Shown piece by piece: positions 3,015 through 7,670 of a DNA stretch of 42,277 nucleotides (position 1 is the first letter of the stretch; the number at the start of each line of letters is the position of its first letter). Position numbers and translations under genes: made by a program. Source of the stretch: Oscillospiraceae bacterium (GTDB lineage Bacteria > Bacillota > Clostridia > Oscillospirales > Ruminococcaceae); the NCBI GenBank assembly GCA_022511485.1, contig JAFLUJ010000002.1, positions 1 through 42,277 of the forward strand, read 5' to 3'. The notes below the pieces were generated by a model that did no database searches, was not told the origin of the DNA, and worked only from the letters and a program-made list of their open reading frames with translations.

Positions 3015-3039
3015 TAAATTCCTGTTTGGTCGAACAATA

Positions 3040-3086
3040 AAAAGGGACATGATCTCCTCATCGAAGTGTCATGTCCTTCTCTGTTT
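3040..3086 (+). terminator. terminator-like hairpin
   Basis: agggacatga...tgtcatgtcctt inverted repeat. Confidence 0.5.
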
Positions 3087-3155
3087 TACAAACGTTCTCC
3101 TTTTAGCAGACAGTTTCATCTTACCACAAATGAGCCGTCAGCCGTTGTGTATTAA

Positions 3156-3239
3156 GTGGCAGAAAACACCCTTTACACATTAACATTCATATGCAACTTC
3201 GTTCAGATCTTGCAGAATAGCAATAACAAAAAGAAATAA
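3156..3239 (+). CDS. possible 27-aa hydrophobic micropeptide (GTG start) ending in NNKKK
   Basis: VAENTLYTLTFICNFVQILQNSNNKKK*; stop lies inside the hairpin shared with the minus-strand sRNA; no good RBS seen. Confidence 0.3.
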   Translation: MAENTLYTLTFICNFVQILQNSNNKKK

Positions 3240-3316
3240 CCGCCCCACGTTCCAAAGGTGACGGTTATTTTACAACTTGATCTTGAGGGCGACCATCTAA
3301 CGGACGTACCCTTTAA
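3234..3316 (-). ncRNA. candidate small antisense-type RNA ending in a bidirectional terminator hairpin
   Basis: Minus-strand consensus promoter TTGACA (3344-3349) / 17 bp / TATAAT (3321-3326), then hairpin aaataaccg...cggttattt (3234-3270). Confidence 0.6.
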
Positions 3317-3458
3317 TATTATTATACACACTCCTGACAAATATGTCAAGAGTTTTTTACTGGCAGCATATCTTTTTATTTATCCATTGCAAATTGTCAT
3401 AAATCGTGATATAATTAAGACAGTGTCAAACGCCCTGACTGAAAGGATAGTGTAGAAA

Positions 3459-4169
3459 TTGCTCAAATTGAAGTTAGCGCTTATTTATCTGGGATATATC
3501 GCAGCGATAGCGATATTGTTCAGTAAAAATCTGATAAACATCATGTCATACTCAGGGGGAAAAGCAGCGGGTATTATTATATTTGTACTGCTCACAGCTC
3601 TGATATTGTATCTGACCTTCGATTTTGTCAGAAAGGAAAATATGAACGCTCTTAAAGCGATCGCAGATAAGAGCGTCAGGGAAGCAACTATTGAAGATCA
3701 GCTTCAGGGCTATCGTGAATATGCCAGATCCTTTAAAAATAAGGGAGACTACCGCATAGCTGATGAGATACAGAAGCTTGGAGAGCTTGCAGAATCCATG
3801 CTCAAAAAGCTGGAAAACATTGACGGACTGCTCCTGAACACGTTTTCCCGGACAGACCTGACCTATATCACATACAAGGAAAGAATAACGGACGTAATGA
3901 AGGTCTATCTCAGGAACTGTCAAAGCGTCAGAACAAGAGCGGATACCTTTGATAACAAGTGGGAAAAGGAAAACAACACCGCACTTACATTTGAAAGTGA
4001 GATGCAGACCTATTTGGGACAGAACGAATCCATATTATCACAGGTAGATAACCTTATGCTGGAGCTTATCCGTCTCGGGGACATCGGTGACGAAAGTGCT
4101 AAAGAACAAATGCTTAAGCTTATCGAGGAAACTAAAGATTATGCAAGTATTCGGGGAGGAACAAAGTAA
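3459..4169 (+). CDS. membrane-anchored coiled-coil protein, first gene of VWA cassette
   Basis: Two N-terminal TM segments then a helical domain; TTG start; ends overlapping the next ATG. Confidence 0.7.
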   Translation: MLKLKLALIYLGYIAAIAILFSKNLINIMSYSGGKAAGIIIFVLLTALILYLTFDFVRKENMNALKAIADKSVREATIEDQLQGYREYARSFKNKGDYRIADEIQKLGELAESMLKKLENIDGLLLNTFSRTDLTYITYKERITDVMKVYLRNCQSVRTRADTFDNKWEKENNTALTFESEMQTYLGQNESILSQVDNLMLELIRLGDIGDESAKEQMLKLIEETKDYASIRGGTK

Positions 4170-5905
4170 TGAATAATAAGCTTTCAATTATTATTGCCGC
4201 AACAGTAGTAGTTATCATAGGAATAATTGTTGCTGTGGTGGTATCAGGCGGCGGTGAGACTGATCCCGGACCTGAACCTGACCGCAGCTCCGGTTTTAAC
4301 TCTATATCCGACGGTGCCGCATCTCTTACCGAAACAGACGCCGCGTCAATGCTTGAAAATGCTGTGGGAAAAGTAAAAATAACATCCAAGGCGCCGTCAA
4401 AAGCTGCCATTTCCTTTGATGAGATCGACGCCGCTGTGGAGCTTCCCCCTATTGACAACGCATATCCTGTTGTGGTAGAGCCAAGCCGTAAGGACATCGT
4501 AATAGAGGTCTGGACCTCTCCCGAAAAGGGCGGAACAGGCGTTGAAAGCTGGATGAGAGATATGGCGGAGGAGTTCAATAATGCAGATCAGTCAGTAAAC
4601 GGAAGATCTGTAGGCGTGAGACTTCGTTCTATTTCCTCAGGTACACAGCTTGATTACATAATCCCATCCGTTGCTGTCCCTGACGCTATTTCTCCCTCTG
4701 CTTCCCTGTGGGCTGATATGTTACAGTCCGAGGGTATCAGGACAGAGTGTATCAATCCCCGTATCGTAGGAAATGTAGCGGGAGTCCTTATCAGCAATTC
4801 AACAATGGACACTCTTGCAGAAACCTATGGAAAAGCGGATATAAAGGCGATCGTGTCCGCAACAGAAGCAGGAACAATAACAGCAGGATATACAAATCCC
4901 TTTGCAAGTACAAGCGGACTTAATTTCCTTGCAGCTACCCTGTATAATTATGACAGTACAAATCCTCTCAGCGAGACTGCTGTCAATGGATTCAACGCAT
5001 TCCAGTACAATGTTCCGTTTGTTGCCTTCAATACGATGCAGATGAGAGACGCCGCGGAGAGAAACACATTCACAAGCATGATACTGGAATATCAGACATA
5101 TTATAATACTCCCGACCTGAAAAACAACTACGAGTTTATCCCTTACGGGGTACGTCACGACAATCCGCTCTACACTATAGGAAATCTTAATGAGGAGCGT
5201 AAGGATGCAGTTAAGCTGTTCAATGATTACTGTATGACAGACAAGGCTCAGCAGGCAGCTGCAAGTTATGGCTTTAACCAGCTTGATGATTATGTTTCCG
5301 ATATGCCGGCAACAGACGGCAAGACCTGGATCCAGATACAGAAGCTCTGGAAGAAGCAGAAGAACGCTGCAAAGCCCATTGCAGCCGTATTTGTACTTGA
5401 TACCTCCGGTTCAATGGCAGGAGAGCCTTTGAAGCTTCTTAAGAATTCTCTTACAAACTCCCTCAGATACATTAATTCCGACAATTATATCGGTGTAATA
5501 AGCTACGGCACTGATGTAAATGTGGATCTGTCCATCGCACAGTTTGACATCAATCATCAGTCATATTTTCAGGGTGCAGTTGACGGACTTATGGCAAACG
5601 GCACAACAGCTACATATTCCGCAGTTGCAAAGGCAGTTCAGATGCTTAACGAGTTTATGGAAACAAATGCTGATGTGCAGCCTATGATATTCCTTTTAAG
5701 TGACGGACAGTCCAATGGAAAAGCTTCCTATGATTCCATATCTCCTGCGTTGAAGTATTATCAGATACCTGTATATACGATAGGATATAATGAAAGCATT
5801 CCAGAACTGGAAACCATCGCAGAGCTGAATGAAGCAGCGTGCATCAACGCCACAACCGATGATGTAATATACAAGCTGAAAAATCTCTTTAATGCAAATC
5901 TGTAA
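4169..5905 (+). CDS. solute-binding-protein-like domain fused to a C-terminal VWA domain
   Basis: N-terminal TM anchor; MIDAS motif DTSGSM, conserved T and LLSDGQSN. Confidence 0.8.
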   Translation: MNNKLSIIIAATVVVIIGIIVAVVVSGGGETDPGPEPDRSSGFNSISDGAASLTETDAASMLENAVGKVKITSKAPSKAAISFDEIDAAVELPPIDNAYPVVVEPSRKDIVIEVWTSPEKGGTGVESWMRDMAEEFNNADQSVNGRSVGVRLRSISSGTQLDYIIPSVAVPDAISPSASLWADMLQSEGIRTECINPRIVGNVAGVLISNSTMDTLAETYGKADIKAIVSATEAGTITAGYTNPFASTSGLNFLAATLYNYDSTNPLSETAVNGFNAFQYNVPFVAFNTMQMRDAAERNTFTSMILEYQTYYNTPDLKNNYEFIPYGVRHDNPLYTIGNLNEERKDAVKLFNDYCMTDKAQQAAASYGFNQLDDYVSDMPATDGKTWIQIQKLWKKQKNAAKPIAAVFVLDTSGSMAGEPLKLLKNSLTNSLRYINSDNYIGVISYGTDVNVDLSIAQFDINHQSYFQGAVDGLMANGTTATYSAVAKAVQMLNEFMETNADVQPMIFLLSDGQSNGKASYDSISPALKYYQIPVYTIGYNESIPELETIAELNEAACINATTDDVIYKLKNLFNANL

Positions 5906-6043
5906 GCATAAGGAAAGTAGTGATGTTTTAAAATCAAAGATTTTAAAACTGCGAGTTTTGTTTTCATCGCTGCCGCTCTGAATTTTGCTTCGCAAAACCA
6001 CAAAACGTCGGAGAAAGGAGGACACATTTTCCCTAAAGGGAAA

Positions 6044-6652
6044 ATGGTCATAATAGTGTTTATAGATGAATTAACCGAACTGAACGCAGATCTTCAGAAA
6101 ACCGTGGATGCTTGCAGCAAAAAGGATAATATAACTATGGTCTTGACAGAGGATATAGAAATGTTCAGACAGCTTGTAAATGAATTAGACCCCTCCAAGA
6201 TCAACTTTGCAAAATCGGGATATTTCAACAGCAAAAAAATAGAAGCATACTGGAGCAAATTTGCCGAGCTGTCCCCAAGCCTGCAAACGTCGGTATCAAG
6301 GATAAAAACTCATAATACCGTGGTGTCAAATACACTCACGGTATTAAGGAGACAGCTGAAACAGGCGTCAGAAACGGTACAGAGGATAAAGTCCGAATAT
6401 ACGAACGGTCAGGTCGATGAATCCCTTATGGCACAGTTCATTGTAACAGACACATATATTTCTGTTATGGAGAATCTTATAACCGAGTATACAGTATGGC
6501 AGGACAGAATAAACAGGATCACGACCACAAGCTCTGCCGCTCTGGATCAGGCAATATCATTTGCCAGACTGGATCAACGAATGGGAAATTATGATACAGT
6601 GAAGTACAAATCCGACTATGAAGCCATGAAGTCAGCGTGTATTATAGGATAA
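6044..6652 (+). CDS. coiled-coil protein, third gene of VWA cassette
   Basis: Co-oriented helical ORF; start codon uncertain (SD at 6014-6021). Confidence 0.6.
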   Translation: MVIIVFIDELTELNADLQKTVDACSKKDNITMVLTEDIEMFRQLVNELDPSKINFAKSGYFNSKKIEAYWSKFAELSPSLQTSVSRIKTHNTVVSNTLTVLRRQLKQASETVQRIKSEYTNGQVDESLMAQFIVTDTYISVMENLITEYTVWQDRINRITTTSSAALDQAISFARLDQRMGNYDTVKYKSDYEAMKSACIIG

Positions 6653-7084: not shown

Positions 7085-7188
7085 AAATATAACTATCAGT
7101 CTTCTTCAATTTTAATTATATATCATTCTTTTCACATTGTCAAGTTTTTTTCGTATGACCCCATAAATCAATCTATTGAGACATTTAA

Positions 7189-7452
7189 TCATAAAACTTC
7201 CCGTCTTTGTCCGATATTCAGTGCGAGTATAATTAATTCCCCGTCATTGATACGGCATATCAGCCTGTAATCACCGATCCGGTAATGCCATTCCCCTATG
7301 TGATCTTTGACCAGAGCCTTGCCGTTAGTCCATGGATCTTCACAATTAACAAGATTCCTTTCGATCCATACCTTTATCATCTTCATAGTATATCTGTCAA
7401 GCGCTTTGAACTCTCTGTCAAATCGTGAAGCAGTTTTTACTTTGTATATCAT
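7189..7452 (-). CDS. RelE/ParE-family toxin
   Basis: RFDREFKALDR...WHYRIGDYRLICRI pattern typical of RelE-type toxins. Confidence 0.85.
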   Translation of the reverse strand: MIYKVKTASRFDREFKALDRYTMKMIKVWIERNLVNCEDPWTNGKALVKDHIGEWHYRIGDYRLICRINDGELIILALNIGQRREVL

Positions 7453-7670
7453 AGGTCAAGCTCCCGCCATAATTCTTCAATAGGACGGCTTTTCATTCCC
7501 TCCTGAAAATATTCCTTGTATGATTCTTCAAAAATACTGATGTCATATTCATCCTCTATCTTTTCAAACAAAGCTTGCTTAAATGCCTCCCCAAGAGACA
7601 TGGAGTGAATACGGGCATAGCTTTCAGCCAACTTTTTTTCATGCTCGGTCAGTCTGATCGAAAATGCCAT
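7449..7670 (-). CDS. RHH antitoxin (DUF6290/RelB-like)
   Basis: MAFSIRLTEHEKKLAESYARIHSMSLGEAFKQAL; 4-nt overlap with toxin gene. Confidence 0.85.
   Translation of the reverse strand: MAFSIRLTEHEKKLAESYARIHSMSLGEAFKQALFEKIEDEYDISIFEESYKEYFQEGMKSRPIEELWRELDL

Follow-up and report, generated by a model that had tools for sequence, protein, structure and literature searches.

A probable degenerate copy of a multi-copy type I toxin–antitoxin-like module in an Oscillospiraceae genome

Introduction

Downstream of a flavodoxin gene, the window (the whole stretch of 42,277 nt analysed here, from an Oscillospiraceae bacterium) contains a minus-strand promoter that faces a short plus-strand reading frame across a hairpin. 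Is this arrangement a functioning toxin–antitoxin pair, what is left of one, or an ordinary terminator? The initial annotation, made from the sequence alone, had read it as a type I toxin–antitoxin-like locus with a possibly eroded toxin. Annotation can easily overlook genes of only about 28 codons. Here we propose, with a probability of roughly 0.86, that the sequence represents a degenerate copy of a multi-copy chromosomal type I toxin–antitoxin-like module found in the order of the Oscillospiraceae relatives. The interest lies in this undescribed family rather than in the window relic itself.

Structure of the window copy

On the minus strand, direct reading confirmed the exact TTGACA-17-TATAAT promoter claimed by the initial annotation (Table 1). 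Exact TTGACA-N16–18-TATAAT sites occurred six times in the whole window, against 0.01 expected from dinucleotide shuffles. The hairpin described on the same strand was also present, with approximately 50 nt separating its stem from the −10 box; the distance of about 80 nt given earlier between promoter and hairpin was too long. The start and end of an sRNA were predicted from the promoter and the U-tract, its 5' end near position 3314 reading AAAGGGUACGUCC... The sRNA matched covariance model R1 with 85 bits (E = 2.9e-17). Its predicted fold of −24.9 kcal/mol was, taken singly, only modestly more stable than that of shuffled sequences (−19.7 ± 3.0 kcal/mol, z = −1.7). The structure was nevertheless supported, because its base pairs co-varied across 30 homologues: both stems together contained six double-changed pairs (2.8 ± 1.0 in shuffles) and 95% of cells were paired (92.5% in shuffles), and three of the seven pairs of the 5' stem-loop were changed on both sides. 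The better U-tract of the shared hairpin (TTATTTCTTTTTG) was on the sRNA strand. Since this U-tract complements the plus-strand lysine codons, the same sequence provides the KKK tail of the peptide and the sRNA terminator, an overlap likewise present in MTW-type relatives. The window copy thus keeps the sRNA promoter, both sRNA stems and the terminator, with identities to L019 and L037 of 33/40 and 35/40 in the promoter and 62/80 and 58/77 in the sRNA body, respectively.

The plus strand was less complete. The short hydrophobic frame noted earlier exists, running from GTG at 3156 to AAA AAG AAA TAA at 3239, and its stop (TAA, 3237–3239) sits within the left arm of the shared hairpin. The GTG is immediately preceded by a stop codon and a ribosome-binding site (RBS) is absent. 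Positions 3187–3238 were identical to the intact module L019 at 49/52 nt and to L037 at 48/52 nt. Identity to the closest intact relatives fell to 14–16/36 at 3151–3186 (L019: 14/36) and to about 22/61 in the sequence 5' of 3151 (L019: 22/61), and local alignment scores upstream of 3187 did not exceed those of shuffled sequence for most relatives. Of the peptide frame in the initial annotation, the codons from about 3187 (the CNFVQILQNSNNKKK part) are therefore homologous to toxins, whereas VAENTLYTLTF is not toxin, because the match to the closest intact relatives starts only at base 3187. No plus-strand promoter-like site was found at 3015–3186.

Table 1. Features of the window copy and of its flank, with their coordinates in the window
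Feature	Position	Strand	Basis or remark
Terminator-like hairpin of the flavodoxin gene	~3043–3081		Direct reading; gene upstream of the module
Front of frame, non-toxin	3156..3186	+	No RBS; stop directly before GTG
Putative toxin gene remnant, C-terminal half (...CNFVQILQNSNNKKK, stop)	3187..3239	+	Homology to intact relatives
Predicted antitoxin-like sRNA, ~90 nt	3221..3314	−	Predicted start ~3314, end ~3221–3228
U-tract of sRNA terminator	3222..3238	−	Complement of toxin Lys codons AAC AAA AAG AAA
Shared hairpin/bidirectional terminator AAATAACCG..CGGTTATTT	3234..3270	both	Reading, folding, covariation
5' stem-loop GGGUACGUCCGUUAGAUGGUCGCCCUC	3284..3311	−	Conserved family element, alignment A2
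Predicted antitoxin sRNA promoter	3316..3355	−	−35 TTGACA 3349–3344, 17-nt spacer, −10 TATAAT 3326–3321; sigma-A-type

In the alignment with intact relatives, the window copy lacked the toxin promoter, leader, RBS, start and first ~11 codons (the N-terminal half), which bore out the suspected toxin erosion; with its 5' half, RBS and promoter absent, it does not contain the intact toxin gene of a type I module. An otherwise complete toxin altered by point mutation (a start-codon change plus a frameshift) was considered and rejected, as for most relatives the upstream sequence resembled the toxin leaders no more than shuffled sequence did. A 5' truncation or complete loss is favoured over point mutation on this alignment. 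Judged from its sequence, the window locus itself is a relic, an antitoxin-only remnant. Its homology, anatomy, covariation and truncation were observed directly.

Homologous modules

The window's own genome (2.7 Mb, 363 contigs) was inventoried for copies by sequence searches of the contigs, and a covariance model was built from 30 copies of this genome and its relatives. Eleven strong covariance-model copies were found in the own genome. The inventory comprised about ten sister copies besides that of the window, and in at least seven of these the peptide gene was complete. Each of the 21 genus genomes searched contained copies (19 with E < 1e-6), and the covariance model also found them in 50/197 genomes of the order, where a genome can carry up to ~20 copies of the module. 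The closest paralogue of the window copy, on contig C35, shared 76% identity over 172 nt (E = 3e-27) and encoded an intact 28-aa peptide, MTWNEFLTLILVICNIIQIMQSSNSKKK, with RBS and promoter, opposite an sRNA of like build.

Approximately 80 of the 101 distinct modules inspected carried an intact toxin frame convergent with the sRNA across the shared hairpin. The intact toxins were 23–39 aa long, with a single hydrophobic stretch and a Lys/Arg-rich tail. Their genes started with ATG, in a few cases GTG; most had a clear RBS, and a TTGACA/TATAAT-like promoter was usual. At the family level, a hydrophobic peptide with a charged tail and its own promoter and RBS was found in 80/101 modules, and the antisense overlap, consisting of a convergent promoter and a shared hairpin, was found with the window copy included. 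These homologues support the earlier type I toxin–antitoxin-like reading, for which homologous loci without a peptide beside the hairpin had been named as the counter-evidence.

Antitoxin-only or 5'-truncated copies occurred elsewhere, e.g., L115, L022:1801, L024:1537 and L092:919, as did toxin-less tandem copies (L090:887, L114:718 and L126:501), in whose three pairs the sRNAs were 35–57 nt apart; the search was anchored on the sRNA and these cases are blind to how often a toxin outlives its sRNA. Five more copies without a visible toxin were interrupted where the contig or locus ended. The flavodoxin and 236-aa genes that flank the module here had different surroundings in relatives, with no module there, and the window sequence had no match in phage, plasmid and viral collections. 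The open-access literature searched contained no description of such modules in Ruminococcus, Oscillospiraceae or rumen bacteria, and the titles and abstracts of open-access work on solitary or orphan type I antitoxins and of type I toxin surveys did not describe the family. Within the libraries searched (open-access literature, Pfam, NCBIfam and Rfam), the module family is undescribed.

Leader structure and shared 5' elements

In 75 of 80 leaders of intact modules, the Shine–Dalgarno (SD) sequence formed a stem with a CU-rich tract 5' of it. This masking stem co-varied, with a cognate energy of −7.92 kcal/mol compared with −7.37 ± 0.14 kcal/mol for permuted combinations (lowest of 10,000: −7.88 kcal/mol). 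Since the SD is masked and the stem co-varies, fresh toxin mRNA is likely poorly translated, by analogy with Fst, AapA and ZorO, whose fresh toxin mRNAs are SD-masked and poorly translated (PMC8167048, PMC8309996).

Both RNAs of one module opened with a common same-sense element of ~28 nt, GGGYAYACC...GCUCCC. When, in 72 modules (e.g., L019, L036 and L142), the toxin leader was compared with the 5' end of the sRNA, the same-sense likeness of the 5' elements was 9.96, versus 6.39 ± 0.21 for permuted pairs, and none of 10,000 permutations was as high. The mutual duplex of the 5' elements was only slightly better than in permuted pairs (−9.6 versus −8.7 ± 0.26). The 5' element is an inverted repeat in the DNA, evolving in concert module by module. 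A role of the sRNA GCUCCC as a locus-specific anti-RBS pairing with the toxin SD was not supported, since cognate pairs were not favoured over permuted ones (−16.5 versus −16.4 ± 0.3; 80 modules).

Genomic neighbourhood

Within the genus, modules less than 1 kb apart formed tandem arrays in 21 of 22 cases. Where modules were 1–5 kb apart, the sRNAs pointed outward in seven pairs and inward in one, and one pair was tandem, a pattern of small numbers from fragmented assemblies. Outward inverted pairs were located in G000 at C222:13104-16091 (L138), C320:66-2736 (L140) and C306:784-4234 (L141), and in other genomes at G005:C5, G016:C142, G004:C185 and G015:C140 (L176–L179). The 2–3 kb bracketed by paired modules contained flagellin, type IV pilin-like or secreted-protein genes. 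In other genera of the bacterial family, tandem arrays with a spacing of ~330 bp were observed (G132:C1:290976-292421; G055:C17), and G055 had 20 module copies. These patterns could be joined into a wider picture, an order-wide chromosomal family with a shared, concertedly evolving 5' element, in which inverted pairs guard surface-protein cassettes or assist their exchange and antitoxin-only copies cross-protect; we regard this picture as speculative and rather unlikely.

No partner module was found elsewhere in the window, where only ordinary terminators were seen. The window copy would face a three-gene run at 3459–6652, encoding transmembrane and secreted VWA proteins: a 236-aa transmembrane protein without family, whose gene was found in one further genome of the genus only, a 578-aa VWA/solute-binding-like protein whose N-terminal region includes a hydrophobic segment, and a 202-aa protein that weakly matches TelA. 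A type II pair was located 4 kb from the type I remnant (7189–7670, minus strand), with a ParE/RelE-like toxin (PF05016, E = 2e-10) and a RelB-family antitoxin (NF046040, DUF6290). A second perfect TTGACA-17-TATAAT promoter (7115–7143, minus strand) was positioned just 5' of an ORF for a 116-aa coiled-coil protein in which EGQKQLF is repeated in tandem.

Proposed mechanism and alternative explanations

Transcription, toxicity, silencing and any activity in trans are predictions from the anatomy described above. In intact copies, a consensus promoter would drive a toxin mRNA with its SD masked by the leader hairpin, encoding a putative membrane peptide of ~28–35 aa with a Lys/Arg tail. A second consensus promoter on the opposite side would drive an RNA of ~90 nt, and one hairpin would end both transcripts; because the convergent transcripts end at one hairpin, the 3' ends of both RNAs would be fully complementary. 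The sRNA would most likely pair from the hairpin and 3' overlap, giving an RNase III target or a translation block, as in TxpA/RatA.

Transcription of the window sRNA probably continues, now as an antitoxin with no toxin of its own. This RNA may be a mere relic, or it may form a partial duplex with the mRNA of its nearest intact paralogue, the C35 copy. In a trans-pairing test, in which the toxin-mRNA segment extends past the hairpin and the absolute energies are inflated, the window sRNA paired with the C35 toxin mRNA at −70.7 kcal/mol, the other non-cognate own-genome sRNAs tested at −57 to −67 kcal/mol and the cognate sRNA at −139 kcal/mol, about twice the value of the window sRNA. Its pairing with the six remaining toxins of the genome was unremarkable for a non-cognate sRNA. 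Protection in trans against the C35 toxin is possible according to these modelled energies.

Retention of the sRNA as an independent regulator, or as an anti-addiction RNA silencing related toxins in trans, would be a functional variant of the degenerate-copy explanation and compatible with it. Such a role would fit the sharp asymmetry between the retained sRNA promoter and stems and the vanished toxin front, the recurrence of other antitoxin-only, 5'-truncated and toxin-less copies, and the rank of the window sRNA as the best non-cognate pairer with the C35 toxin. However, that pairing reached only about half the cognate energy and was unremarkable beside the six other own toxins, and a recent truncation without function would leave an identical picture. 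We consider retention for this role possible but doubtful.

That the pair still functions, the 27-aa GTG-started peptide being made and toxic, is very improbable: the frame is open, with a hydrophobic stretch, a KKK tail and a stop in the hairpin, but it has no promoter and no RBS, a stop just before the GTG, and an N-terminal half unrelated to any toxin of the family. Least probable of all is a plain bidirectional terminator separating the flavodoxin gene from the adjacent gene, with a promoter arisen by chance close by; the hairpin is shaped like an intrinsic terminator, but this reading is contradicted by the homologues, in which promoter, 5' stem and hairpin recur together at unrelated sites alongside intact peptides and the 5' stem-loop co-varies, and by the separate hairpin of the flavodoxin gene (GGGACATGA...TCATGTCC).

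The working covariance model makes copies of the module countable and testable, and the antitoxin-only copies could be used to ask if a solitary antitoxin RNA confers protection from sister toxins.

Comparison with known type I systems

The parallels to TxpA/RatA and Fst drawn by the initial annotation held as mechanism, whereas the tests at sequence level failed. In TxpA/RatA and BsrG/SR4 of B. subtilis, a small hydrophobic toxin gene and an antisense RNA are convergent and overlap at their 3' ends (PMC8167048), the same layout as in the window-family modules; in TxpA/RatA, duplex formation is followed by decay or translational block (PMC6563280, PMC8167048). In contrast to these systems, the window sequence had no match in phage or plasmid collections, the family peptides are 23–39 aa rather than 59 aa long, and no sequence match in the family exceeded any cutoff. 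On the toxin strand of a distant copy, L035, the Rfam BsrG model gave a sub-threshold match (E = 0.018, 26 bits versus a cutoff of 55), which hints at a remote kinship of the family with TxpA/BsrG. None of the Rfam antitoxin RNAs reached its gathering score.

The par/Fst system of pAD1 has convergent RNAs, a common bidirectional terminator, 5'-end repeats and an SD in a leader stem-loop (PMC8167048, PMC8309996). The window family is likewise convergent with a common bidirectional terminator, carries a 5'-end repeat on each RNA and masks the SD in 75/80 leaders. The 5' repeats are direct in par, whereas those of the window family are same-sense in both RNAs and thus inverted in the DNA. The toxin helix of the Fst/Ldr superfamily contains an APxxxG motif (PMC8309996); the APxxxG of Fst, Lpt and SprA1 was absent from the window-family alignment A3, and proline was missing in nearly all family peptides.

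The putative holin-like toxin Hol_Tox (PF16935) shares size, an MVTY.-like N-terminus, a hydrophobic helix and a Lys tail with the family. Weak Hol_Tox matches were obtained for 3 of 26 members (best E = 0.04, 14.2 bits versus a cutoff of 23.3) and for none of the singly scanned MTW-type toxins, those closest to the window copy. No scanned member reached the NCBIfam and Pfam cutoffs; PADLOC gave nothing among the members scanned, PHROGs gave weak, scattered matches only, and a search of the toxin profile against the PDB found no type I toxin. With the motif absent and the cutoff missed, the window family is not assignable to Fst/Ldr or Hol_Tox, respectively.

Compared by description only, the type I systems of C. 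difficile (CD2517.1/RCd8 and others), which are multi-copy and combine an antisense RNA with peptides having a hydrophobic N-terminus and a Lys-rich C-terminus (PMC6563280), have peptide build, antisense RNA and multi-copy occurrence in common with the window family. Eight type I systems of strain 630 are placed in prophages or the skin element (PMC6563280), whereas the window-family copies inspected sit among chromosomal genes. Failing the sequence tests for both TxpA/RatA and par/Fst, the window family would, judged by its anatomy, work like one or the other.
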